Source: Pararhizobium sp. IMCC21322 (lineage in GTDB: Bacteria; Pseudomonadota; Alphaproteobacteria; Rhizobiales; GCA-2746425). Taken from it: a stretch of DNA of 64,000 bases. Location: NCBI RefSeq assembly GCF_030758295.1, contig NZ_CP132335.1, positions 2,084,412 to 2,148,411 of the forward strand. The letters run 5' to 3'. Below, one piece after another: positions 29,547 to 51,182 of the stretch. The stretch's first letter is position 1, and each line of letters starts with the position of its first letter. The translations under genes and the position numbers were made by a program. The notes under the pieces are model-generated. The model did not search any database. It worked only from the letters and a program-made list of their open reading frames with translations, and was not told the origin of the DNA.

Positions 29547-30947
29547 CTACGGCAGCAAAGCACCGGGATTGAACACGCCATCAGGATCGAGTGTGCGTTT
29601 CATCTGGCGCATCATGTCCAGTTCCACATCCGATTTGATATGAGGCATCAGTTTTGCCTTCAGCCGCCCAATGCCGTGTTCGGCAGAGACAGAGCCGCCA
29701 TATGCCGCAACAATGTCATGGACCACGGTGTTGACCCGATCCCACTCAGCCAGAAAGGCGTCCTTGTCGGCACCGATGGGCTGGCTGACATTGAAGTGAA
29801 TGTTGCCATCACCAAGATGCCCAAACGGCACGGGACGACAATTCGGGATCGTGGCCTTAACGGCAGCGCTGGCTTCCAGAATGAAATCAGGCATTTTCGA
29901 AACCGGGACAGAAACGTCATGCTTGATTGAGCCGCCCTCAAATTTCTGGACTTCTGACATGGCATGCCGCAAGCGCCAGAAAGCATCCTGTTGGGCAAGG
30001 GAATTGGCAAGCACCGCATCATTGACATGGCCTGCGTCGAAAGCCGTTTCGAAGGCCTCGGCCATAAGCGCTTCAGCTTCGGCATCCGAGCGACCGCTGG
30101 AAATCTCAATCACAGCATACCACGGATGCTCGCCCTCTAATGGGTCACGTGCACCCTCAAGGTGGCGATATGTATACTCCATCCCGATCCGCGGAATGAG
30201 CTCAAACCCGGTGAGATTTGAGCCAGCCAACCCTTGCGCAATATTCAGTGTTGCAAGGGCTGCATGAGGGGACTCAAAGCCCATAAAGGCAACTTGTTTG
30301 CCTTTCGGTTTGGGGAAAAGTTTCAGTGTAGCGGCTGTTACAAGACCCAAAGTGCCTTCTGCGCCGATGAATAATTGTTTCAGGTCGTAACCTGTGTTGT
30401 TCTTTCGCAAGGCACGCAGTCCGTTCCAGATGCGCCCATCGGCAAGAACCACTTCAAGTCCGAGCACCAGATCGCGCGTATTTCCATAGGCCAGAACACC
30501 CGTGCCGCCCGCATTGCTGGAGATATTCCCGCCAATCTGGCACGAGCCCTGTGAGCCCAGCGACAGTGGAAAAAACCGATCCGCATCCGAAGCTGCCTGT
30601 TGAATACGCTCCAGCACAACGCCTGCTTCCACGGTGATTGAATTGCCCTCTGAATCGAGGTTTCGTATGGCGTTAAGTCTGTCTGTAGACAGGATAATAT
30701 GGTTTTTTTCATCGTCGGGCATTTGCCCGCCAACAAGCCCGGTATTGCCGCCCTGTGGAATGATTTTCAGCCCGTGAGAGCAAGCCAGCTTCACGGCATC
30801 ACTGACTTCCTGTGTTGTTGAGGGTCGAACTACCGCAAGTGCCTTGCCTTGGTAAAGGCCGCGCCATTCGCGCAAATAGGGTTGCATGTCATCTTGATTG
30901 CTCAGCACGGCATTGGCGCCAAGCGCGTTTTTGAATTCTGAAAGCAT
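29547..30947 (-). CDS. FAD-binding D-2-hydroxyacid (D-2-hydroxyglutarate type) dehydrogenase
   Basis: A 466-residue flavoprotein of the vanillyl-alcohol-oxidase/GlcD superfamily. The PCMH-type FAD domain shows VVRPSTTQEVSDAV and IPQGGNTGLVGGQMP; the C-terminal substrate domain has PFGHLGDGNIHFNVSQP and AEHGIGRLK. These patterns match D-2-hydroxyglutarate dehydrogenase. That enzyme also removes hydroxyglutarate formed by SerA in serine synthesis, which would fit serB at the left of the window, but this link is inference. D-lactate dehydrogenase is an alternative. Divergent from fabI. Confidence 0.87.
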   Translation of the reverse strand: MLSEFKNALGANAVLSNQDDMQPYLREWRGLYQGKALAVVRPSTTQEVSDAVKLACSHGLKIIPQGGNTGLVGGQMPDDEKNHIILSTDRLNAIRNLDSEGNSITVEAGVVLERIQQAASDADRFFPLSLGSQGSCQIGGNISSNAGGTGVLAYGNTRDLVLGLEVVLADGRIWNGLRALRKNNTGYDLKQLFIGAEGTLGLVTAATLKLFPKPKGKQVAFMGFESPHAALATLNIAQGLAGSNLTGFELIPRIGMEYTYRHLEGARDPLEGEHPWYAVIEISSGRSDAEAEALMAEAFETAFDAGHVNDAVLANSLAQQDAFWRLRHAMSEVQKFEGGSIKHDVSVPVSKMPDFILEASAAVKATIPNCRPVPFGHLGDGNIHFNVSQPIGADKDAFLAEWDRVNTVVHDIVAAYGGSVSAEHGIGRLKAKLMPHIKSDVELDMMRQMKRTLDPDGVFNPGALLP

Positions 30948-37136: not shown

Positions 37137-37922
37137 TCAATCTGGAGCGACCCCTCCGAAATACGCAGTCAGATTTGCAGCCAAAGCCTTATAGGTGGCA
37201 ACGACTTCATCCAGATCGGGCACCACAACTTCATCGATCCGATGAAGATGAGGGCAGGTAACCACGGCTATGGCACGCGAAAAAGAATCAAACACCGGAA
37301 ATGACAGATCGGTCACGCCCTGTGTGGCTTCGGATGGGGCCTGCTCGTAGCCACGGTCAAGAATGGCCTCGAGGCGTTTTTTCAGGATGGCCCTATCAGG
37401 TCTCGGCTCTCCAAGGGCGAGGCGATGATTGTCCAGCAGGGCTTTGCGTTCCTCCGAAGGTCGAAAGGCTGCCAGCACGCGCCCGGTCCCCGTATTGGTC
37501 AGTCCAATGACAGAGCCCGCGCGCATTGCAAGTCCCCAGTTTCCCGGAGAGGGATGCGACGCGACAATGACGACCATCCAGTTATCTTCCATCCCGATAT
37601 GACAGGATTGCCAGGAACTTTGTGCCGCGGTCTGCATCAGCGGTGCGGCATAGGCCAGCAATCTGTGCATCGGCGGATGAAACTGTGCCAGCGAGAACAT
37701 TTTCAGGGAAAGCGCAAAAAGATCACTTTTTGCATCACGTGAAATATAGCCCCGTTGCAGCAGCGTTGTCAGCATACGGTAAATCTCGTTTGGAGAGCGC
37801 CCGAGTGCCTCGGCAATGTCCTTCTGAGACAAGCCATGACTGCGCTCTGCCAGCAACTCGATGATATCGAGGCCCTTGTCGAGAGCCGGCGCGCGATACT
37901 TGTCATTGGCACTATCGTCCAT
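37137..37922 (-). CDS. IclR family transcriptional regulator
   Basis: A 261-residue regulator with an N-terminal winged helix (KGLDIIELLAERSHGLSQKDIAEALGRSPNEIYRMLTTL region, residues 15-60) and a C-terminal effector domain (RMLAYAAPLMQ to the C-terminus) that in this family binds small organic acids. The ATG at 37922 has GAGAGG eight bases upstream. It is divergent from the fuconate operon, whose first gene starts 110 bp away, and is the likely regulator of that operon; a fuconate pathway intermediate is the expected effector, by inference. Confidence 0.9.
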   Translation of the reverse strand: MDDSANDKYRAPALDKGLDIIELLAERSHGLSQKDIAEALGRSPNEIYRMLTTLLQRGYISRDAKSDLFALSLKMFSLAQFHPPMHRLLAYAAPLMQTAAQSSWQSCHIGMEDNWMVVIVASHPSPGNWGLAMRAGSVIGLTNTGTGRVLAAFRPSEERKALLDNHRLALGEPRPDRAILKKRLEAILDRGYEQAPSEATQGVTDLSFPVFDSFSRAIAVVTCPHLHRIDEVVVPDLDEVVATYKALAANLTAYFGGVAPD

Positions 37923-37999: not shown

Positions 38000-38018
38000 A
38001 TGAATTTCAAACATTCAT
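38000..38018. promoter_or_regulatory. candidate operator (short inverted repeat) upstream of the fuconate operon
   Basis: ATGAAT at 38000-38005 and ATTCAT at 38013-38018 form a perfect six-base dyad with a seven-base spacer, just upstream of the SDR ribosome binding site. A related ATTCAT lies at 37934-37939 near the IclR gene start. The position suits an IclR-type operator, but short AT-rich dyads arise easily by chance. Confidence 0.3.
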
Positions 38019-38031
38019 GGGAGCGATCATA

Positions 38032-38778
38032 ATGTCTTCATCATTACGTCTGGCGGGAAAAACTGCCCTGATAACTGCAGCCGGTCAAGGTATCGGCAGA
38101 GCCACTGTAGATATGTATGTGGCTCAGGGCGCAAAGGTGTTCGCAACGGACATCAATTCCGCCTCTCTAAGCGTTTTTGATGGCGTGGAACAGGTAACAG
38201 CCATGCCATTGGACGTGACAGATGCGGACGCCGTTGCCAGCACCGTAGCGGACATTGGTCCGGTTGATGTGCTGTTTAACTGTGCCGGATATGTCCATGC
38301 GGGAAACATTCTGGAATGCAGCGACGAGGACTGGACCTTCGCCTTTGATCTGAATGTGACAGCCATGTACCGGCTGATGAAACTGACCTTGCCTGGCATG
38401 CTTGAAAATGGCGGTGGGTCAATCATCAACATGTCCTCTGTGGCGTCTTCCATAAAGGGCGTTCCCAATCGCTTCGCTTATTGTGCGTCCAAGGCGGCGG
38501 TCATCGGCATGACCAAATCCGTTGCTGCGGACTTTGTGACAAAGGGCGTGCGCTGCAATGCCATTTGCCCGGGCACCGTTGATACGCCCAGCCTTCATGA
38601 AAGGCTTCGGGCTACGGGCAATTATGATCAGGCCTGGAAAGATTTTGTTGCCAGACAGCCAATGGGCCGTGTCGGCAATGTGAACGAGATTGCAGCTCTG
38701 GCCACCTATCTGGCCAGTGATGAAAGCGGCTTTACAACGGGACAGGCCCACGCCATCGATGGCGGATGGGCCATATAG
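38032..38778 (+). CDS. SDR family dehydrogenase, probable 2-keto-3-deoxy-L-fuconate dehydrogenase
   Basis: A 248-residue short-chain dehydrogenase. The ATG at 38032 has GGGAG eight bases upstream; the one at 38017 would lack a site. Motifs: TAAGQGIGRATVDMY (NAD binding), NCAGYVHAG, catalytic Ser in INMSSVASS, YCASKAAVIGMTKSVAADF (Tyr and Lys), and CPGTVDTPSLHERL, a segment typical of the group with 2-keto-3-deoxy-L-fuconate dehydrogenase and BDH2-like enzymes. It would oxidise 2-keto-3-deoxy-L-fuconate at C4. The assignment rests on this subgroup resemblance together with the fuconate dehydratase gene downstream. Confidence 0.82.
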   Translation: MSSSLRLAGKTALITAAGQGIGRATVDMYVAQGAKVFATDINSASLSVFDGVEQVTAMPLDVTDADAVASTVADIGPVDVLFNCAGYVHAGNILECSDEDWTFAFDLNVTAMYRLMKLTLPGMLENGGGSIINMSSVASSIKGVPNRFAYCASKAAVIGMTKSVAADFVTKGVRCNAICPGTVDTPSLHERLRATGNYDQAWKDFVARQPMGRVGNVNEIAALATYLASDESGFTTGQAHAIDGGWAI

Positions 38779-38793
38779 AAAGAGGATTTTGAC

Positions 38794-39636
38794 ATGAAAT
38801 TATTGCGATACGGGCCACAAGGATCCGAAAAACCCGGACTGCTGGACGATGACGGATCAATCCGCGATCTTAGCGGTGTGGTTTCCGATGTTTCAGGCAA
38901 GGCTTTGAGTGAAGGGCTGATCGATAGCCTCAGCGGACTGGATGTAAAAAGCCTCCCGGTGGTTGATGGTAATCCACGCTTGGGGCCATGCGTTGGCGGC
39001 GTCGGTAAATTCATCTGTATCGGTCTCAACTATGCAGATCATGCTGTAGAAAGCGGTATGGAGCTGCCTGAAGAGCCGGTGATCTTTTTCAAAGCGACCT
39101 CGGCCATTTGTGGCCCGGACGATAAGGTTGAAATTCCACGCAATTCGGTCAAGACAGACTGGGAAGTCGAGCTGGGTGTCGTCATCGGCAAAGAAGCCAA
39201 ATATGTGTCGGAAGCAGATGCTTTGGACCATGTTGCCGGCTACTGTGTCATCAACGATGTCAGCGAGCGGGACTTTCAGTTGCACCGCTCCGGCCAATGG
39301 GTCAAAGGCAAATCTGCTGACACCTTCGGGCCTATCGGGCCATGGTTGGTGACGCGGGACGAAGTGGCTGATCCTCAGGATCTGGCCATGTGGCTTGAAG
39401 TGAATGGCCACCGTTACCAGAACGGCTCCACACGCACCATGCATTTTGGTGTTGCAACCGTGATTGCACATCTGTCGCAATTCATGTCGCTTCAGCCGGG
39501 GGATGTCATCTCCACGGGAACGCCTCCAGGTGTTGGCATGGGCCAGAAACCGGAAACCTATCTCAAGCCCGGTGATAAAATCGAGTTGGGCATTGATGGA
39601 CTTGGCCAGCAATCCCAGGATGTGGTTGCAGGCTAA
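38794..39636 (+). CDS. fumarylacetoacetate hydrolase family protein, probable 2,4-diketo-3-deoxy-L-fuconate hydrolase
   Basis: A 280-residue FAH-fold metal-dependent hydrolase. The N-terminal 75 residues form the family's small domain; the catalytic part starts at KFICIGLNYADHAVESG and contains WEVELGVVIGK and VINDVSERDFQLHRSGQWVKGKSADTFGPIGPW (metal ligands Glu and Asp, in pieces) and STGTPPGVGMG. In the non-phosphorylated L-fucose pathway this family cleaves 2,4-diketo-3-deoxy-L-fuconate to pyruvate and L-lactate. It starts 15 bp after the SDR gene and its stop overlaps the start of the dehydratase gene. Confidence 0.85.
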   Translation: MKLLRYGPQGSEKPGLLDDDGSIRDLSGVVSDVSGKALSEGLIDSLSGLDVKSLPVVDGNPRLGPCVGGVGKFICIGLNYADHAVESGMELPEEPVIFFKATSAICGPDDKVEIPRNSVKTDWEVELGVVIGKEAKYVSEADALDHVAGYCVINDVSERDFQLHRSGQWVKGKSADTFGPIGPWLVTRDEVADPQDLAMWLEVNGHRYQNGSTRTMHFGVATVIAHLSQFMSLQPGDVISTGTPPGVGMGQKPETYLKPGDKIELGIDGLGQQSQDVVAG

Positions 39637-40913
39637 TGGTCAAGATTACCGGACTGACCACACGCGATCTCAGATTCCCGACAAGTCTGTCTCTGGACGG
39701 CTCTGATGCGATGAATCCGGATCCGGATTACTCGGCTGCTTACGTCATTCTGGAAACAGATGGCACTCATGAAGGGCATGGACTGACCTTCACGATTGGA
39801 CGTGGCAATGAAATCTGTATTGTTGCCATCAAGGCACTGAGCAATCTTGTGGTCGGTCTGGACCTTGACTGGATTCGCGATGATATGGGCCGTTTCTGGC
39901 GTCATATCACTGGCGACAGTCAGCTAAGATGGATTGGACCCGACAAGGGGGCGATCCATCTGGCAACAGGCGCGGTTGTCAATGCGGTTTGGGATTTGCT
40001 CGCCAAGGAAGCCGGCAAGCCGGTTTGGCAATTGGTTGGCGACATGTCGCCAGAGGAAATCGTCAAACTGGTGGATTTCCGCTATCTGGCCGATGCCCTG
40101 ACCCCGGAAGAAGCGCTGGCGCTTTTGAAGAAGGCAGAGGCTGGTAAAGCAGAACGGATCGAACGTCTGAAACAGGAAGGCTACCCTTGCTACACAACGT
40201 CAGCAGGCTGGCTTGGCTATTCGGACGAAAAGCTGCGCGGTCTCTGCCGTGAAGCGCGGGAGTCCGGTTTCACCCACACCAAATTCAAGGTGGGGCGTGA
40301 TCTGCAGGATGATATTCGCCGCCTGACAATTGCCCGGGAAGAACTGGGCGAAGAAATGACCATCATGATCGACGCCAACCAGGTCTGGGAAGTCAAAGAA
40401 GCCATCGACTGGGTCAAGGAACTGGCTTTTGTACGCCCGTTCTTCATTGAAGAACCTACCAGCCCGGACGATGTTGCAGGCCACAAGGCCATTCGCGACG
40501 CAATCGCGCCCATCAAGGTCGCGACCGGTGAAATGTGCCAGAACCGCATCCTGTTCAAACAATTCATCGCTGGCGGTGCCATTGATATTGTTCAGATCGA
40601 TGCCTGCCGCCTTGGCGGCTTGAACGAAGTGTTGGCCGTGCAGCTGATGGCCGCCAAATATGGCCTGCCAATCTGGCCGCATGCTGGTGGCGTGGGCTTG
40701 TGTGAATATGTCCAGCACCTGTCGATGATCGATTATGTCGCCATTTCAGGAGAGAAGGACAGCAAGAGGATTGAGTTTGTGGATCATCTCCACGAGCATT
40801 TCATCAATCCCTGCATCGTAGAGGATGGCGCCTATCAGGCGCCACAAGCAGCGGGCTTCTCAATCGAAATAAAACCCGAAACGCTCAACAATCCGGACTT
40901 TATCCACGGATAG
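39636..40913 (+). CDS. fucD: L-fuconate dehydratase
   Basis: A 425-residue enolase-superfamily enzyme that removes water from L-fuconate to give 2-keto-3-deoxy-L-fuconate. It closely resembles the characterised Xanthomonas FucD along its length, including the N-terminal FPTSLSLDGSDAMNPDPDYS, the IGRGN segment, and SQLRWIGPDKG. Catalytic residues align with a two-residue offset: Lys216/Lys218 in KFKVG, metal ligands Asp246, Glu272 and Glu299, Asp322 and His349 in WPHAGGVGLCE. Its start ATG overlaps the hydrolase TAA/TAATG junction. Last gene of the three-gene operon; it converges on the sulfatase gene. Confidence 0.93.
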   Translation: MVKITGLTTRDLRFPTSLSLDGSDAMNPDPDYSAAYVILETDGTHEGHGLTFTIGRGNEICIVAIKALSNLVVGLDLDWIRDDMGRFWRHITGDSQLRWIGPDKGAIHLATGAVVNAVWDLLAKEAGKPVWQLVGDMSPEEIVKLVDFRYLADALTPEEALALLKKAEAGKAERIERLKQEGYPCYTTSAGWLGYSDEKLRGLCREARESGFTHTKFKVGRDLQDDIRRLTIAREELGEEMTIMIDANQVWEVKEAIDWVKELAFVRPFFIEEPTSPDDVAGHKAIRDAIAPIKVATGEMCQNRILFKQFIAGGAIDIVQIDACRLGGLNEVLAVQLMAAKYGLPIWPHAGGVGLCEYVQHLSMIDYVAISGEKDSKRIEFVDHLHEHFINPCIVEDGAYQAPQAAGFSIEIKPETLNNPDFIHG

Positions 40914-40927
40914 AAGTCGCCGTTTCA

Positions 40928-40949
40928 GGGATGGCCGTCAGGCCATCCC
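40928..40949. terminator. nine-base-pair hairpin between the converging fuconate and sulfatase operons
   Basis: GGGATGGCC at 40928-40936 and GGCCATCCC at 40941-40949 pair perfectly around the loop GTCA. It lies 15 bp after fucD and covers the stop codon and last codons of the sulfatase gene. Neither strand has a T tract after it, so it is an imperfect terminator; it may stop read-through from both sides or protect transcript ends. Confidence 0.55.
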
Positions 40950-42476
40950 CACCTGCGGCAACTGGGTTGGCAACGCGTCATCCGGACGTGATGCGATCAT
41001 ACCTTCAAGTGTGGCACGCATATCCGCATAATCCGGATTTTCGTACAGGTTGACGCATTCATTCGGATCATTCAGCAGATCATACATCTCGCCGTCACCG
41101 CTGATCATATCCTTGCTCAATCTCTGGGTCCGTGTCCGCACTGTCCGCAGATCGAGCGCAACACCGGAGCGGGAGGAACGCAAATCCCACTCATTATAGG
41201 CAAATTCACGGTGTGCATCATCTGTCTCGATTAGGTCACGCAGGCTTTGGCTGTGCATATCCATGAGTTGCGGCGCATCGGCGTAATCCAGGATTGTGGC
41301 CGCAAAATCCAGATTGGACACCGGATCAGTAACCCGCTTTCCGGCAGGGATCCCAGGTCCTTTGATGATGCAGCCGACCCTCAGCAGCCCGTCATACAGC
41401 ATGGGGCCTTTCAACAGCAGGCCGTGATCACCAAGCCAGTCGCCGTGATCGGCTGAATAGATAATGATTGTATTGTCATCCAGTCCAAGATGGCCAAGCT
41501 CTGCCATGATCCGACCGACATTGTGATCAATCAGCGCTATCATGCCGTAGTAATTGGCGATGACTTCACGCAATTGATCATCGCTCATAACCGGCGTGCG
41601 CGAGTATTTCGTGCGAAATTCTGCCAGATCTTCCCGAATGTCGGGTTTACCTTCCAACGCCTGCTTATGCCACCAGGGGCGTTTTTCCAGATCAAGCGTA
41701 CGGTTTTCCGGCAGATCAACGTCTTCTGGCCGATGCAACAGGCTCCAGGGAACGGGGCAGTCAAAGGGATGGTGTGGATCAGGAAAAGAGGCCCAGATGA
41801 AAAACGGCTCATCTTCGTCCTGTACCTCATTGATGCGGGCAATGGTCCTGTCGGCCACCCAGGTTGAGTTGTGCCACACCGGGGGAAGCCCTGAATGCCA
41901 TGTCTGTGGAGCATCCTTTGTATCCGGTCCCACATTGGCCGAGTAGGCTTCGTTCTTTTCAGCGCCGTACCCGTCTCCATAATACCAGTTTTCATAATGC
42001 TGGCCATTGGGCGGCTGCAGGGGAAGATGAATATTGTGTCCTTCGACAACCAGTTCGACATGGGAAAATCCCATATAAGGGCCAAACCAGTCTTCTGAAT
42101 AATTTGCCATACTGTCACGGCATTCCGCCGAGCCAGTTGGCTCAAATGTATGTGCGGTGGCAAAATGAGCTTTGCCGATGAGTGTGGTGCTGTAGCCTGA
42201 GGCTGTTAAAGCGCCGCCAAATCCTTTTTCACCCAATTCAGGGTCCAGATCGATGCCATTGTCCGAAACCCCATGGGTTCTGGGCAACAGACCGGTGACC
42301 AGAGACGCACGCGCAGGCTGACAGACCGGATTTGAGGTGATGCAAGTGGCAAAATGGGTGCCCTCACGCGCCAACTGGTCCAGATGCGGTGTCTTGACCT
42401 TGCGCCCTTCAAACCCGAAACAGTCGCCGCGATGCTGATCAGCTGTGATGAAAATGATGTTTGGCCGTTTACTCAT
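40938..42476 (-). CDS. cytoplasmic type I sulfatase (S1 family)
   Basis: A 512-residue formylglycine-dependent sulfatase. The maturation motif is C52-Q-P-A-R in SNPVCQPARASLVTG, so Cys52 becomes the catalytic formylglycine. Asp13-Gln14 (FITADQHRGD) begin the calcium site, completed by SADHGDWLGDHG near residue 340, with the substrate-site Lys in LLLKGPMLYDG. There is no signal peptide (MSKRPNIIFI), so it should work in the cytoplasm. It is the last gene of the tctB-tctA-tctC-sulfatase string. Substrate unknown; a sulfated sugar acid imported by the adjacent transporter is the inference. No sulfatase-modifying enzyme gene is in the window. Confidence 0.9.
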   Translation of the reverse strand: MSKRPNIIFITADQHRGDCFGFEGRKVKTPHLDQLAREGTHFATCITSNPVCQPARASLVTGLLPRTHGVSDNGIDLDPELGEKGFGGALTASGYSTTLIGKAHFATAHTFEPTGSAECRDSMANYSEDWFGPYMGFSHVELVVEGHNIHLPLQPPNGQHYENWYYGDGYGAEKNEAYSANVGPDTKDAPQTWHSGLPPVWHNSTWVADRTIARINEVQDEDEPFFIWASFPDPHHPFDCPVPWSLLHRPEDVDLPENRTLDLEKRPWWHKQALEGKPDIREDLAEFRTKYSRTPVMSDDQLREVIANYYGMIALIDHNVGRIMAELGHLGLDDNTIIIYSADHGDWLGDHGLLLKGPMLYDGLLRVGCIIKGPGIPAGKRVTDPVSNLDFAATILDYADAPQLMDMHSQSLRDLIETDDAHREFAYNEWDLRSSRSGVALDLRTVRTRTQRLSKDMISGDGEMYDLLNDPNECVNLYENPDYADMRATLEGMIASRPDDALPTQLPQVGMA

Positions 42477-42538
42477 GAACTGCTTCCTGTATCTGGGGCA
42501 TGTGTTGGCCCTGCCGATGGCAGGGCCAAACGGCTTAC

Positions 42539-43507
42539 TTATTTGATCAGCTTTGCAAGATCAGACATGCTCTTGGCAGATGCGCCAATATAAGCTTCAG
42601 CTTCATCCAGCGGCTTCCAGATGGGTGTCACACCGTAGCTTCTGGCAAAATTCGTCCAGTCGTCGGACTGCGCCATGCCGCCGAAGATTGTGGCCAATTT
42701 AGCCATCACATCATCCGGCGTATCCTTGGGTGCCCAGAGCGCGGCCCAGATCCCAAGATCATGGGGAATGCCAGCTTCTGGAAAGGAAATCATATCTCCT
42801 TTGAATTTGACAAGCTCAAGCTCGGTTGAAGCCACAAGAAAGACCGCTTCTCCAGCATTGACTGAGTCCAGTCCTGCGGGCGCACCAGGCATACCAGCGT
42901 CAATCTGGTCACCAAGCAATGCGGCCATTGTCGGGGCGCCGCCACCATAGGGAATGATGTTCACGTCGATATCAAATGTGTCTTCAATGGCAATCACGGC
43001 AAGATGCTGCGGGCTGCTGAGCGCTGGCACGCCAACAGTCAGTTCGCCCGGACGTTCTTTTGCAGCTGCCACAAAGTCAGCCAGTTTTTCCCAGCCTTTT
43101 GAAGGGCGTGCCAACAGCCATGCGCCACGCAGGTTGAAAACGCCAATGGGGCGGAAATCTTCTGCGCTGACGGGAAGGTTTTCCTGAAACAGCGGCAAGG
43201 TGGTCATCACGGTATCGGCGACCAGAAGCGTATAGCCATCCGGCTTGGCACGTGATGCCTGTAAAATCCCGGTCACACCACCGCCACCTGTTACTGAATC
43301 AATGACAATCGGCTGATCAATGAAATTGTCAGACATTTTCGTCAGGCCGCGAATGGCCGTGTCAGTTGCGCCGCCGGGCGCAAATGCATTGATGATCTGG
43401 ATGGGCTTCGATGGAAAATCCTGGGCCATCGATGCGCCATTGAATGAGACAGCAACAGCCGCCGCTATTGCCGCTAGTCCGGCTATTCTTGAAGTTATAT
43501 TTTTCAT
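42539..43507 (-). CDS. tctC: tripartite tricarboxylate transporter (TctC) substrate-binding protein
   Basis: A 322-residue periplasmic binding protein of the Bug/TctC family. It has a signal peptide (about 1-28, ending SMAQ), then the family start DFPSKPIQIINAFAPGGATDTAIR with the binding-loop Gly/Thr, and the GVPALSSPQHLAVIAIE and GMPGAPAGLDSVNAG loops. TctC proteins bind carboxylates and pass them to TctAB. A perfect ribosome binding site (AGGAGG) lies seven bases before the ATG, which suits the higher expression binding proteins need. It follows tctA by 21 bp; the sulfatase gene follows by 62 bp. Confidence 0.92.
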   Translation of the reverse strand: MKNITSRIAGLAAIAAAVAVSFNGASMAQDFPSKPIQIINAFAPGGATDTAIRGLTKMSDNFIDQPIVIDSVTGGGGVTGILQASRAKPDGYTLLVADTVMTTLPLFQENLPVSAEDFRPIGVFNLRGAWLLARPSKGWEKLADFVAAAKERPGELTVGVPALSSPQHLAVIAIEDTFDIDVNIIPYGGGAPTMAALLGDQIDAGMPGAPAGLDSVNAGEAVFLVASTELELVKFKGDMISFPEAGIPHDLGIWAALWAPKDTPDDVMAKLATIFGGMAQSDDWTNFARSYGVTPIWKPLDEAEAYIGASAKSMSDLAKLIK

Positions 43508-43528
43508 TGTTTCCTCCTGTTAAAAAAG

Positions 43529-45064
43529 TCATGCGTCGGTCGATTGTTTGGCCTGTGTCTCGGATTTCTTTTTTGATTTTGAGACAAAGTCGTAGAGAAG
43601 CTTTCCCGCAAGCAGGGTCAGCAGAATGATGCAAATCAGCGAGATCGGGCTGGTGAGAAACACCATCGCGTCGCCGCGCGAAATCATCAGCGCCCGGCGG
43701 AAATTACTTTCGATGACCGGTCCCAGGATCAACCCCAGGGCCAGGGCGGGAATAGAGAACCCGAACCGATGCATCAAATAGCCGAGCACACCGAATGACA
43801 GGGCAATCATCATTTCAAACGTATTGTTTGTACTGGCAAAACTGCCTGCCAGCGCCAGCACCAGAACACTGCCAAGCAGCATGGAGCGATCAATGCGCAA
43901 CACTGCAGTGAAAGGTCTGATCAACAGAACCGCGGCCAACAGGGTGGTCAGATTGGCAACCCCGAGCGCTATCAGAATGCCGTATGCCATATCAGGGCTT
44001 TCACGGAAAAACAGCGGGCCCGGTTGCAGCCCGAACAACATCAGTGCGCCCAGCATGATTGCCGTGGAGCCGTCGCCGGGAATGCCAAGTGTCAGCATCG
44101 GAATTGTAGCGCCGCCGGTGACGGCGTTGTTGGCAGCCTCTGGCGCTGCCAGGCCTTGCGGGACGCCTTCTCCGATTTTGCGATCGCTTTTCAAAAACCC
44201 TTTTTCGATCTGGCGTTTGACATAGGCAAAGGACAACCAGCCGGCAGTATCCGAGCCAACGCCCGGAACAACGCCAAGGATAGATCCGATGGTCGTGCCA
44301 ACCGCCAACTGCTTGCGCATGCTCCACAATTCGCGCATCAGCGAAACCAGATTGAAGCGTCCTCTTTTTGTTGGGGGCTTGGCGTTCACAGCTTCTTCGG
44401 ACATGTCGACCAGCACGGTTGCAATGGCGAACAGGCCGACAATCGCTGCCAAAAACGGAATGCCACCAAGCATTTGATAGTATCCCAGCGTCAGTCGTGG
44501 CGTGCCTGTCAGCTCATCCAGTCCAACTGTTGCCAGGATCAAACCAAGGCACGAAGACATCAGGCCTTTCAGCAGGTCCCGGCCAGACAGGCTGGAGACA
44601 GCGGCCAGCGCCATAAGGCCGATCATGGCCAGATCAGCAGATGAAATCCGGACCGCGTAAAGACCAATGACGCCAACCAGAGGCACGGCAACCATCCAGC
44701 TTACAGTCCCGCCCACAAAGGAAGAGCCAATCGAGATCGCCAGCGCCCGTCCGGCTTCTCCCCGCTGCGCCATGGGAAAACCTTCCATGGCTGTGGCGGC
44801 GGCAGCTGGTGTGCCGGGAGTGCGAATGAGAATGGCGGCAAACGCACCGCCGGTTTTGGTGCCGACATAAATGCCGATCAGGATCATGAAGGCAGAAAAT
44901 GGCTCCATCCCGAATGTGATTGGAATGAGAATGGCCAAAGCCATTGGCGATGACAGGCCCGGCAGAACGCCGACCAGCAAACCCAATGCGCTGCCAACAA
45001 AGAGAAACGCAAAGCTCATTGGCTGAAAAATATCAGCAAACGCTCCGAGGATGTGAGAGGTCAT
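43529..45064 (-). CDS. tctA: tripartite tricarboxylate transporter large membrane subunit TctA
   Basis: A 511-residue, about 12-helix permease subunit. GLLVGVLPGLSSPMALAILIPIT near the N-terminus and PGTPAAAATAMEGFPMAQRG, then VVPGVGSDTAGWLSFAYVK and PEAANNAVTGGATIPMLTLGIPGDGSTAIML, are the two repeated Gly/Pro-rich signatures of TctA. The C-terminal tail is Lys/Ser-rich and cytoplasmic. It takes the substrate from TctC and moves it with protons or sodium. It lies four bases downstream of tctB. Confidence 0.93.
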   Translation of the reverse strand: MTSHILGAFADIFQPMSFAFLFVGSALGLLVGVLPGLSSPMALAILIPITFGMEPFSAFMILIGIYVGTKTGGAFAAILIRTPGTPAAAATAMEGFPMAQRGEAGRALAISIGSSFVGGTVSWMVAVPLVGVIGLYAVRISSADLAMIGLMALAAVSSLSGRDLLKGLMSSCLGLILATVGLDELTGTPRLTLGYYQMLGGIPFLAAIVGLFAIATVLVDMSEEAVNAKPPTKRGRFNLVSLMRELWSMRKQLAVGTTIGSILGVVPGVGSDTAGWLSFAYVKRQIEKGFLKSDRKIGEGVPQGLAAPEAANNAVTGGATIPMLTLGIPGDGSTAIMLGALMLFGLQPGPLFFRESPDMAYGILIALGVANLTTLLAAVLLIRPFTAVLRIDRSMLLGSVLVLALAGSFASTNNTFEMMIALSFGVLGYLMHRFGFSIPALALGLILGPVIESNFRRALMISRGDAMVFLTSPISLICIILLTLLAGKLLYDFVSKSKKKSETQAKQSTDA

Positions 45065-45068
45065 GATC

Positions 45069-45512
45069 TCACCTCACAATCCCGACAATGTAGACAAACA
45101 AAATGGTCAGGAAGCCTGCTGATAGGGCTGTGCTGATGAGAAGCCGCTTCAATGGGCGCACGCCGAAAGACAGGAACACCAGGAATATGAATGCGAAGGT
45201 GAGGGGTGCAAATGGCACCAACCGGAACAGAAGAATGTAGAGCACCATCAGCACAGTTGCTGAGACAATGCGGTGCATGCTGTTCCAGTTCCAGTCGTAG
45301 ATGCCGTCAAACGTGCCCGATTTGACAACAAACATCAGCATCCGAACAATTGCCAAAACGCCCATGGTACCTGCAGCCAGCCGTGGAAAAGTGCCAGATG
45401 CCACCTGACTGCCGCCAGCGTCCATGATGGAACCTGTCTGCACAAAGACCAGAACGGCGATGGCAAGAATAGCGGTTAAAACCAGCAATTCCTGAATCAG
45501 CGCATGTCGCAT
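45069..45512 (-). CDS. tctB: tripartite tricarboxylate transporter small membrane subunit TctB
   Basis: A 147-residue, four-helix protein matching TctB in size and topology. The frame is open to 45575, but the ATG at 45512 (MRHALIQELL) has an excellent GGGAGG site eight bases upstream and puts the first helix at the N-terminus. VASGTFPRLAAGTMGVLAIVRML is the conserved first-loop region. First gene of tctB-tctA-tctC-sulfatase, divergent from a LysR regulator. Confidence 0.88.
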   Translation of the reverse strand: MRHALIQELLVLTAILAIAVLVFVQTGSIMDAGGSQVASGTFPRLAAGTMGVLAIVRMLMFVVKSGTFDGIYDWNWNSMHRIVSATVLMVLYILLFRLVPFAPLTFAFIFLVFLSFGVRPLKRLLISTALSAGFLTILFVYIVGIVR

Positions 45513-45583
45513 ATTGTCCCTCCCCAGGGGGCGGATCCTGAACTGATCCGCCATAACTTGATCAAAGTCTCGCATTCAAGGTA

Positions 45584-45617: not shown

Positions 45618-46535
45618 ATGACAAAAATGAATACCTTTGTTCCCCTGCGTCATGTTGCGGTCATGCTGACCATTGAAGAATATGGCAGCATCAACGCAGC
45701 GGCGAGTATTATGGGGATGACCCAATCAGCTCTCACCAAAGCACTGAAAAGAGCCGAGGACGAAATGGGCGTGCGGCTGTTTGACCGCCATGCCAAAGGT
45801 GTCACACCGACCCCGTCGGGCAAGCTGGCTTTGGAACACGCGAAAATCATCCGCAGTCAAAGCGATCAGATTATCAATGCGATTGATGGACTGAGAAACT
45901 CACCCGGCCGGGTTCAGGTCGGAGCAGGGGCATCATTTCTGGATGCCTTGTTACCACGCGCCATAGCCAATGTGGTTTCGCGTTATCCTACAGCGGAAAT
46001 CCATTTGAAGATGGATAATGCGGTGGTGCTTTTGAACATGTTGCGGGAAGGTAAGCTGGACTTGTTGTTTGGCTCAGAATTTCCTGGAGCCGCCGCAATG
46101 GAGGACATTGAGTGGCTGCCCTTGATCGCAAATGAGATGGATGTGGTCGCTCGATCTGGCCACCCATTGGCCGGAAGACATAACATAGGCCCATCTGACT
46201 TGAGAGATTATGGCTGGGTTCTGGGTGGACAGAATGATCCGCCATATCTCCATCTGGAAAGCGTTTTTCGGGCGAAGGGTTGGGTCTTTCCCCATGTCGC
46301 AGTGCACTCGGTCTCGCGGACTGTCGCCATACGCATCGTCCAGCAATCCGATCTTTTGACGCTGTTGCCAAACATGCGCACCAATCCAAACCATAGCGAT
46401 ATTGTGCGCATTGATTGCGAAGACCTGACGTGGACGCGCATTGCAGGCATCGCTGTACGCAAAGGCTACGAACTGCCGCCAGCAGGAAGGGCGTTGCTTT
46501 CCGAGATTAAAAACGTCTGCAAGACCTATAATTAA
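45618..46535 (+). CDS. LysR family transcriptional regulator
   Basis: A 305-residue LysR-type regulator with the N-terminal helix-turn-helix (LTIEEYGSINAAASIMGMTQSALTKALKRAEDEMGVRLFDRH region, about residues 15-60) and a periplasmic-binding-like effector domain starting at GRVQVGAGASFLD. The start is ATG 45618 or 45627. It is divergent from tctB with about 105 bp between the coding starts, so it most likely controls the tctBAC-sulfatase operon; by family logic it would respond to the transported acid or a product of it. Confidence 0.92.
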   Translation: MTKMNTFVPLRHVAVMLTIEEYGSINAAASIMGMTQSALTKALKRAEDEMGVRLFDRHAKGVTPTPSGKLALEHAKIIRSQSDQIINAIDGLRNSPGRVQVGAGASFLDALLPRAIANVVSRYPTAEIHLKMDNAVVLLNMLREGKLDLLFGSEFPGAAAMEDIEWLPLIANEMDVVARSGHPLAGRHNIGPSDLRDYGWVLGGQNDPPYLHLESVFRAKGWVFPHVAVHSVSRTVAIRIVQQSDLLTLLPNMRTNPNHSDIVRIDCEDLTWTRIAGIAVRKGYELPPAGRALLSEIKNVCKTYN

Positions 46536-48463: not shown

Positions 48464-48755
48464 TGGTAAATTACCGAAGGTCGAATCTGGTGAGGAACTT
48501 GGTTGGCGCACACCTTCAGGTTTTAGCTGCAGGGATGCAAGACCCTGATTGATAGCCGATCTCAACCGGTTTTAAATTGAGTGTTTCAGCCGCTGCGATT
48601 GCCGCATCTCAGGTTTCAGATACATCACAGGAAGGCTCGGTCCGTTTTTCAACATTCATATTGAAGGGTCTTGCAGACCTTTCTCGACAACTGGAAACCA
48701 GATCTATCGTTCTGATATTAGTGCATCGCGGAACCACGCTTCAACGGCTCAAGTC

Positions 48756-50306: not shown

Positions 50307-51182
50307 ATGAGCTATGTGCATGCCTGGAAATCCAACGGCGAGATTATTTCGAACAGTGACGCAATTGCCCCTTGGTGGAGCATTACGAAAACAGTCATTG
50401 CTGTGGCATGCCTCAAGTTCTGGGAAGCTGGTGATCTGGAGCTTGATAAGCCGCTCCGGAATCGTCCTTTCACGCTACGGCAGCTCTTGAGGCACACAGC
50501 TGGTGTTCCCAATTACGGGCGCGTCAAAGCCTATCACGATGCAGTATCGGGAAAGCAGAAAGCCTGGTCCGCCGAGAAGCTTTTAGCTGTTGTGAAGGCT
50601 GACACTCTGGATTTTGCGCCGGGCCAGGGATGGAACTACTCCAATACAGGCTATCTGCTGGTGCGGCAGCTGTTGGAAGATATTTCGGACAGACCCTTTG
50701 CTGAACTCATTCATCGAACCATTTTTGGCCCCCTTGATCTCAGCTCTGCTTCCATCGTGCAGACAAAAGCAGACCTTGAAAAATGCCGGTATATGAAAAA
50801 CACCGGGTATGATGCCGGCTGGGTCTATCACGGTCTGGCAAGCGGAACGGCGGCGGATGCAGTTGGTTTTCTCGATCATATTCTCCACTCCGACTTTCTG
50901 ACGCCCGCTTCAAAGATGGCTCTGCAAGACAGGGTTGAGGTTGGTGGACCTCTGCCCGACCGGCCCTGGCAGACCTGCAATTATGGTTTGGGTGTAATGT
51001 GCGGTGAGACGAAAAATGCAGGGCAGGTCATCGGCCATTCTGGCGCGAGCCCATTTTCGGTTTCGGCGCTGTATCATTTCTCCGATTTGCCGGTTCCGGT
51101 AACGGCCTGTGCGTTTCATTCCGGCACTGATGAAGGGAAAACTGAATGGGAGGTTCTGCGGCTGGCTCAAAAGTGCCAATAG
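50307..51182 (+). CDS. serine hydrolase (beta-lactamase/esterase family)
   Basis: A 291-residue penicillin-binding-protein-like hydrolase. The catalytic SxxK is in WWSITKTVIAVACLKF near residue 29, the YxN motif in WNYSNTGYLLVRQL, and the third motif in IGHSGASPF. There is no signal peptide, so this is more likely a cytoplasmic esterase or peptidase than a true beta-lactamase. It is shorter than class C enzymes. The ATG at 50307 has AAGGA eight bases upstream. Confidence 0.85.
   Translation: MSYVHAWKSNGEIISNSDAIAPWWSITKTVIAVACLKFWEAGDLELDKPLRNRPFTLRQLLRHTAGVPNYGRVKAYHDAVSGKQKAWSAEKLLAVVKADTLDFAPGQGWNYSNTGYLLVRQLLEDISDRPFAELIHRTIFGPLDLSSASIVQTKADLEKCRYMKNTGYDAGWVYHGLASGTAADAVGFLDHILHSDFLTPASKMALQDRVEVGGPLPDRPWQTCNYGLGVMCGETKNAGQVIGHSGASPFSVSALYHFSDLPVPVTACAFHSGTDEGKTEWEVLRLAQKCQ

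Follow-up and report, generated by a model that had tools for sequence, protein, structure and literature searches.

The non-phosphorylating L-fucose pathway involves a dehydratase, a type-1 L-2-keto-3-deoxyfuconate (L-KDF) 4-dehydrogenase and a 2,4-diketo-3-deoxy acid hydrolase. The available part of PMC11199699 gives Arg-Thr-Arg-Arg ligands and a Trp residue for the type-1 4-dehydrogenase. The tripartite tricarboxylate transporter (TTT) family includes SlcHFG, an importer of sulfolactate according to the accessible sections of PMC5812351. In Shinella, the acesulfame sulfatase is a formylglycine enzyme encoded beside catabolic genes, as stated in the available part of PMC11500405; the words "tripartite" and "tricarboxylate" are absent from the main text of that paper. 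Here we consider two converging operons of Pararhizobium sp. IMCC21322, one with the three enzymes of the L-fucose type and the other with a TTT importer and a formylglycine sulfatase. They lie in a window of 64,000 nucleotides, by which we mean the whole stretch analysed (contig NZ_CP132335.1, positions 2,084,412 to 2,148,411; the genome, G000, is a single contig of 5.25 Mb). An earlier interpretation made from the letters alone, the sequence-only reading, combined the two operons in one pathway. It is quite probable that they are instead two separate catabolic modules that became neighbours.

All seven genes are present, and the gene calls and Pfam matches bear out the layout and the broad gene names given earlier. 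The plus strand encodes a short-chain dehydrogenase/reductase (SDR; 38017..38778, with an alternative in-frame ATG at 38032 that had been taken as the start), an FAH-family hydrolase (38794..39636) and a dehydratase of the enolase superfamily (39636..40913). The minus strand encodes the sulfatase (40938..42476), TctC (42539..43507), TctA (43529..45064) and TctB (45069..45575, previously started at the in-frame ATG at 45512). The stop-to-stop gap is 40914..40937, in agreement with the described tail-to-tail convergence over 24 bp. The pair is flanked by two regulators that the sequence-only reading did not include. An IclR-family gene (37137..37922, minus strand; Pfam HTH_IclR and IclR_C) is divergent from the trio, and a LysR-family gene (45618..46535, plus strand; Pfam) is divergent from tctB.

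The dehydratase aligns along its length with L-fuconate dehydratase structures, at scores of 820 bits (4ip4) and 547 bits (2hne, residues 4-417), and the NCBIfam models match it weakly. The SDR has 315 bits to 8y11, and the alignment retains the three Arg, the Thr and the C-terminal Trp of the type-1 L-KDF 4-dehydrogenase. The PDB record of 8y11 is titled "SDR family oxidoreductase"; we take it to be the L-KDF 4-dehydrogenase of the PMC11199699 study. The FAH protein, a probable 2,4-diketo-3-deoxy-L-fuconate hydrolase, has 330 bits to the L-2,4-diketo-3-deoxyrhamnonate hydrolase 8gsr and 432 bits to NF053535, under the cut-off of 500. The structure matches and the SDR ligand residues fit the earlier assignment of the trio to the lower oxidative L-fucose route, and the trio looks like ordinary L-fucose catabolism by a known pathway, with the SDR as the probable 4-dehydrogenase. 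However, the window operon contains no fucose dehydrogenase, lactonase or sugar transporter, for which there are candidates elsewhere in the genome.

The same order SDR-FAH-dehydratase was found inside a sugar operon on Rhodobacterales plasmids of Ruegeria sp. TM1040, Parasedimentitalea and Pseudosulfitobacter, the three contexts read among 308 plasmid records with a dehydratase match. All three operons also contain an IclR gene, a sugar ABC transporter, a second mandelate-racemase-family gene and an L-rhamnose-mutarotase gene. The trio is together at some of the ten dehydratase loci from other genomes of the class (L100, L105, L107) and split at others; an IclR gene is present at four of the ten, and an alpha-L-fucosidase gene at L107. 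IclR adjoins the trio in two other genomes of the genus, G003 and G002, as well. A cluster of sugar ABC transporter, aldo-keto reductase (AKR) and lactonase-like genes at 636-654 kb of G000, also present in G003, could supply the upper steps of L-fucose oxidation and may thereby be linked to the trio. In G002 a lactonase-like frame (G002:C1:4593797-4594618) contains one in-frame TAG, and the trio genes are intact.

The phylogenetic distribution does not connect the two operons. The class survey covered 385 genomes including that of the window, with a sulfatase threshold of E 1e-120 or better; in each genome the three or four best candidates were scored. Among the 384 other genomes the sulfatase was found in 14, the dehydratase in 10 and both in none. 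About 0.4 genomes with both are expected by chance, and therefore this result shows no association, rather than avoidance. Within the genus, G003 has both modules, G002 the dehydratase alone, G004 the sulfatase alone and G001 neither. Thus the conserved co-occurrence of the operons, whose lack the sequence-only reading itself had named as a refutation of the joint pathway, is seen in 0 of 384 other class genomes and in one of the four other genus genomes. At the ten class dehydratase loci no match to the TctA, TctC or sulfatase of the window was found, although a divergent TctC could escape such a comparison. Likewise, the dehydratase is not within 5 kb of the sulfatase at any of 41 sulfatase loci outside the genus. 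On plasmids, 308 records match the dehydratase and eight the sulfatase, and the 25 dehydratase records listed include none of those eight. G000 and G003 also carry a paralogue of the sulfatase, 54% identical to it.

In G003, the only other genus genome with both modules, the operons are not adjacent. The G003 region aligns with the window on both flanks, but a 6.7-kb siderophore-uptake cluster lies between the operons, at the convergent junction (blastn breakpoints at 40913/40933 of the window and 7492/14165 of L071). It encodes a TonB receptor, a periplasmic binding protein, two FecCD permeases, an ABC ATPase and a siderophore-interacting protein. The G003 and G002 dehydratases are 97% and 93% identical to that of the window. 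In G002, where the trio occurs without the sulfatase cassette, the gene next to the dehydratase encodes a siderophore-interacting protein and is 79% identical to its G003 counterpart. Conversely, G004 has the cassette without the trio. In G003 and G004 the cassette is still accompanied by the LysR gene. With three genomes to go by, the most parsimonious history would be that the siderophore genes are ancestral between the operons and were lost in the lineage of the window, so that the direct adjacency of the operons would be due to loss of the intervening iron-uptake genes. Two further differences between the window and G003 were seen: about 9.5 kb of extra DNA in G003 at 48471-48662 of the window, and a segment of the window (50401-51021) that the alignment with G003 does not cover.

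The operons are accompanied by different divergent regulators, IclR for the trio and LysR for the cassette. The two regulator-operon intergenic regions have no 8-mer in common and share one 7-mer. Given the distribution, the synteny, the locus contexts and the separate regulators, the single joint pathway is not supported, and we reject it as the best explanation of the locus.

The minus-strand cassette encodes a complete TTT transporter, with the periplasmic binding protein TctC (PF03401, 112.7 bits), the large permease TctA (PF01970, 418.7 bits) and the small permease TctB (PF07331, 40.3 bits, cut-off 29.1) each above its own Pfam cut-off. It encodes no catabolic enzyme. SlcHFG likewise belongs to the TTT family and takes up a small sulfur-bearing carboxylate. 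However, its substrate as given in the accessible part of PMC5812351 is a sulfonate, whereas the importer of the window sits with a sulfate-ester hydrolase.

The sulfatase is an S1 formylglycine enzyme by its PF00884 match and its CxPxR motif, here CQPAR, in which C52, P54 and R56 are invariant in 30 homologues. The predicted model (pLDDT 89.8) has the sulfatase fold, and no export signal was seen. A gene for the formylglycine-generating enzyme (FGE) is present at 4.27 Mb. A Foldseek search with the model gave fold matches and no close solved relative, and therefore no substrate can be transferred. Within S1, the branch of choline sulfatases and phosphonate monoester hydrolases shares the formylglycine motif and the fold (TM-scores about 0.65-0.77), but identity to the window sulfatase is at most 26% in the 50 Foldseek rows listed. 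Choline sulfatase itself was considered and rejected, as the match to TIGR03417 (178.3 of 433.45 bits) is far under the cut-off.

The pairing of this sulfatase with TTT genes is recurrent. The 41 loci outside the genus, considered with a reach of 5 kb, exclude L036 and L055, which belong to the genus, and L065-L068, whose matches are weak or partial; L040 and L111, both included, are probably one record. TctA or TctC lies within this distance of the sulfatase at 20 of the 41 (TctC at 18, TctA at nine), at least two of OppA, OppB and OppC at four, and a second sulfatase at 24. The two gammaproteobacterial loci, L056 and L058, have no TTT gene within 5 kb of the sulfatase. On plasmids, TTT genes are near the sulfatase relative (E 1e-80 or better) in all eight records. 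In five of them an alpha-hydroxy-acid oxidase gene follows directly downstream of the sulfatase; four of these oxidases are the query itself or 78-80% identical to it and one is 34% identical. An FGE gene is nearby in five of the eight records, and thus the maturase may travel with the cassette. Such FGE genes were seen near the TTT-sulfatase cassettes of the Rhodobacterales plasmid loci L158, L162, L163, L164 and L165.

In the tree, the window sulfatase groups with L036, G004, Nioella L037 and Paracoccaceae L064, apart from the clade that bears the oxidase. Its nearest relatives outside the genus are L037 and L064, both with a second sulfatase and with amidohydrolases of one protein cluster. 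The L037 amidohydrolase resembles L-fuconolactonase (151 bits, cut-off 400). Because of the oxidase genes on plasmids and the lactonase-like genes of L037 and L064, the product of the sulfatase is plausibly a hydroxy or sugar acid, judging from gene neighbourhoods. Elsewhere in the window (29553-30875) there is a homologue of FAD-linked oxidases, 28% identical to the oxidase beside the cassette of Sulfitobacter SK012.

Such cassettes are numerous in the genome of the window. PF00884 searches of G000 gave 26 matches, which correspond to 25 sulfatase-like genes since two matches are pieces of one gene. One protein was excluded from the sulfatase count (L155:6051-7751), as it has no CxPxR motif and a hydrophobic, membrane-like N terminus; presumably it is of the phosphoethanolamine-transferase type. 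Of the 24 motif-bearing sulfatases, 14 are within 6 kb of one of the 27 TctC genes, with 1.4 expected. None of 5000 rotations (shifts of at least 50 kb, the L155 protein removed) reached this number, the maximum being six. In G004 and G002 the corresponding counts are 19 of 32 and 8 of 18, with near-zero shifts allowed and L155-like proteins retained. In-line sulfatase-TctC-TctA cassettes were found at nine places, the window, L075, L128, L131, L133, L134, L135, L136 and L138. Together they contain ten sulfatases, as L075 has two, one of them behind an open reading frame of unknown kind.

These sulfatases do not look exported. The N-terminal hydropathy maximum is at most 1.8 in all 21 proteins screened out of the 24, and the other three have no signal-like start by eye. 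The screen is crude: the starts of the L137 and L143 sulfatases are probably miscalled, and among 11 TctC proteins seven reach 2.0, the others probably having wrong starts. Besides the assignment of the trio, the part of the sequence-only reading that stands is thus the combination of TTT import with a cytoplasmic-looking sulfatase: the recurrent pairing makes import followed by desulfation plausible, and more widely than was claimed. Sulfated L-fuconate as the substrate is unlikely.

Export is common among sulfatases that act on algal polysaccharides. The at least nine cassettes may or may not, with about equal likelihood, represent a general strategy in which small sulfated carboxylates, such as O-sulfated hydroxy acids and sugar acids, are first imported and then desulfated inside the cell, and which would define a distinct nutritional guild. 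The chances are just as evenly balanced that this strategy is separate from the extracytoplasmic degradation of sulfated polysaccharides and is spread over Alpha- and Betaproteobacteria, often on plasmids. No description of a TTT-sulfatase cassette was found among the titles, abstract openings and passages listed from a PubMed Central subset. The trio belongs to a known pathway, whereas the cassette appears to be new as a combination.

Several other loci of G000 combine related genes. At 4043-4060 kb (L137:1-10677) a formylglycine-motif sulfatase gene is directly followed by a fuconolactonase-like amidohydrolase gene, with Gfo/Idh/MocA-like, ABC and enolase-superfamily genes upstream; as a candidate for oxidative breakdown of a sulfated sugar, this locus is better than the operon pair of the window. 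The genes at 4711-4720 kb (L139:3384-11657) encode a sulfatase, a dienelactone hydrolase, LysR, TctC, a hydroxyisobutyrate-dehydrogenase-like protein, TctA and an enolase-superfamily protein, possibly a TTT transporter, a sulfatase and a sugar-acid dehydratase together. At 117-125 kb (L129:3592-10442), TctC and TctA genes are followed by enolase-superfamily, dihydrodipicolinate synthase-family, GntR-like and PdxA genes. This group contains no sulfatase gene, which suggests unsulfated sugar acids as the cargo of some TTT systems of this genome. Four of 13 enolase-superfamily genes of G000 are within 10 kb of sulfatases (1.1 expected; 91 of 5000 rotations as high). The 13 genes are those similar to the dehydratase, and the enolase gene L139:3384-4490 is not counted. 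Without the window pair the count is three of 12 (374 of 5000 rotations as high), and a general proximity of enolase-superfamily genes to sulfatases is not established.

Under the reading of two separate modules, the first, under IclR, would convert L-fuconate into 2-keto-3-deoxy-L-fuconate, then into 2,4-diketo-3-deoxy-L-fuconate, and finally into pyruvate and lactate. The L-fuconate would probably arise by oxidation of L-fucose, with the enzymes encoded at other places such as the 636-654 kb cluster. In the second module, under LysR, TctC would bind a small sulfated carboxylate in the periplasm and the TTT system would import it. The sulfate would then be removed in the cytoplasm by the formylglycine sulfatase, matured by FGE, and a hydroxy or sugar acid, the probable product, would enter general metabolism.

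Another possibility, which we consider unlikely, is that the cassette scavenges sulfur or handles the sulfate of an aromatic carboxylate, the carbon skeleton being degraded elsewhere or not at all. The window cassette itself has no catabolic enzyme, two betaproteobacterial relatives of the sulfatase are near an HpaE-type aldehyde dehydrogenase gene (one also near a Rieske oxygenase gene), and carriage of terephthalate by TTT systems is reported in the available part of PMC5812351. The best NCBIfam model of the LysR protein is PcaQ, at 126 of 304 bits and thus far under the cut-off. However, the genes directly adjoining the cassette in G000 and G003 include none recognised as an aromatic-degradation gene, and inspection by eye revealed none in G004, in which the majority of the neighbours had no classification. 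The nearest relatives outside the genus have a lactonase-like gene instead.

Several observations weigh against two separate modules as described here. The candidate upstream genes are 38-45% identical to the AKR and lactonase queries. G002 has the trio and an AKR gene, yet its lactonase frame is interrupted, and no sugar ABC match was found within the 16 kb read there. The loss of the siderophore genes is reconstructed from three genomes. At 21 of the 41 sulfatase loci neither TctA nor TctC is within 5 kb, some of these loci being on short contigs, and TctA is present at just nine. On a Roseibium plasmid, the TTT-sulfatase locus adjoins a LacI-flanked operon with enolase, FAH and SDR genes, the FAH protein being 51% identical to that of the window. 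Finally, sulfatases are near enolase-superfamily or lactonase-like genes at L058, L137 and L139. Together with the Roseibium locus, these leave room for a route of sulfated sugar acids in general, although the enolase count in G000 is not significant without the window pair. Use of the two operons together could also still lie behind their joint location in G000 and, less tightly, in G003.

It is nevertheless very improbable that the TTT system of the window imports sulfated L-fuconate for desulfation by the sulfatase and degradation by the trio: the adjacency in the window, the retention of both modules in G003, the fuconolactonase-like amidohydrolases in the cassettes of L037 and L064, the L058 enolase-superfamily gene adjoining the sulfatase (weakly like galactonate dehydratase, 108 of 311 bits), the enolase-superfamily gene near TTT and sulfatase genes in L139 and the Roseibium juxtaposition are outweighed by the absence of joint occurrence in 384 other class genomes, the single modules of G002 and G004, the siderophore genes of G003 and the separate regulators with no common 8-mer. 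We are also not aware of any publication in which sulfated L-fuconate appears as a metabolite. As the evidence points to a chance neighbourhood, a joint sulfated-fuconate pathway is of little importance.

To our knowledge, most TTT transporters have no known substrate. Their repeated pairing with cytoplasmic-looking sulfatases ties together two large orphan families. It predicts that many TTT binding proteins would recognise sulfate esters, and it suggests a route, open to testing, for the possible use of dissolved low-molecular-weight organosulfates by bacteria of marine and fresh waters.

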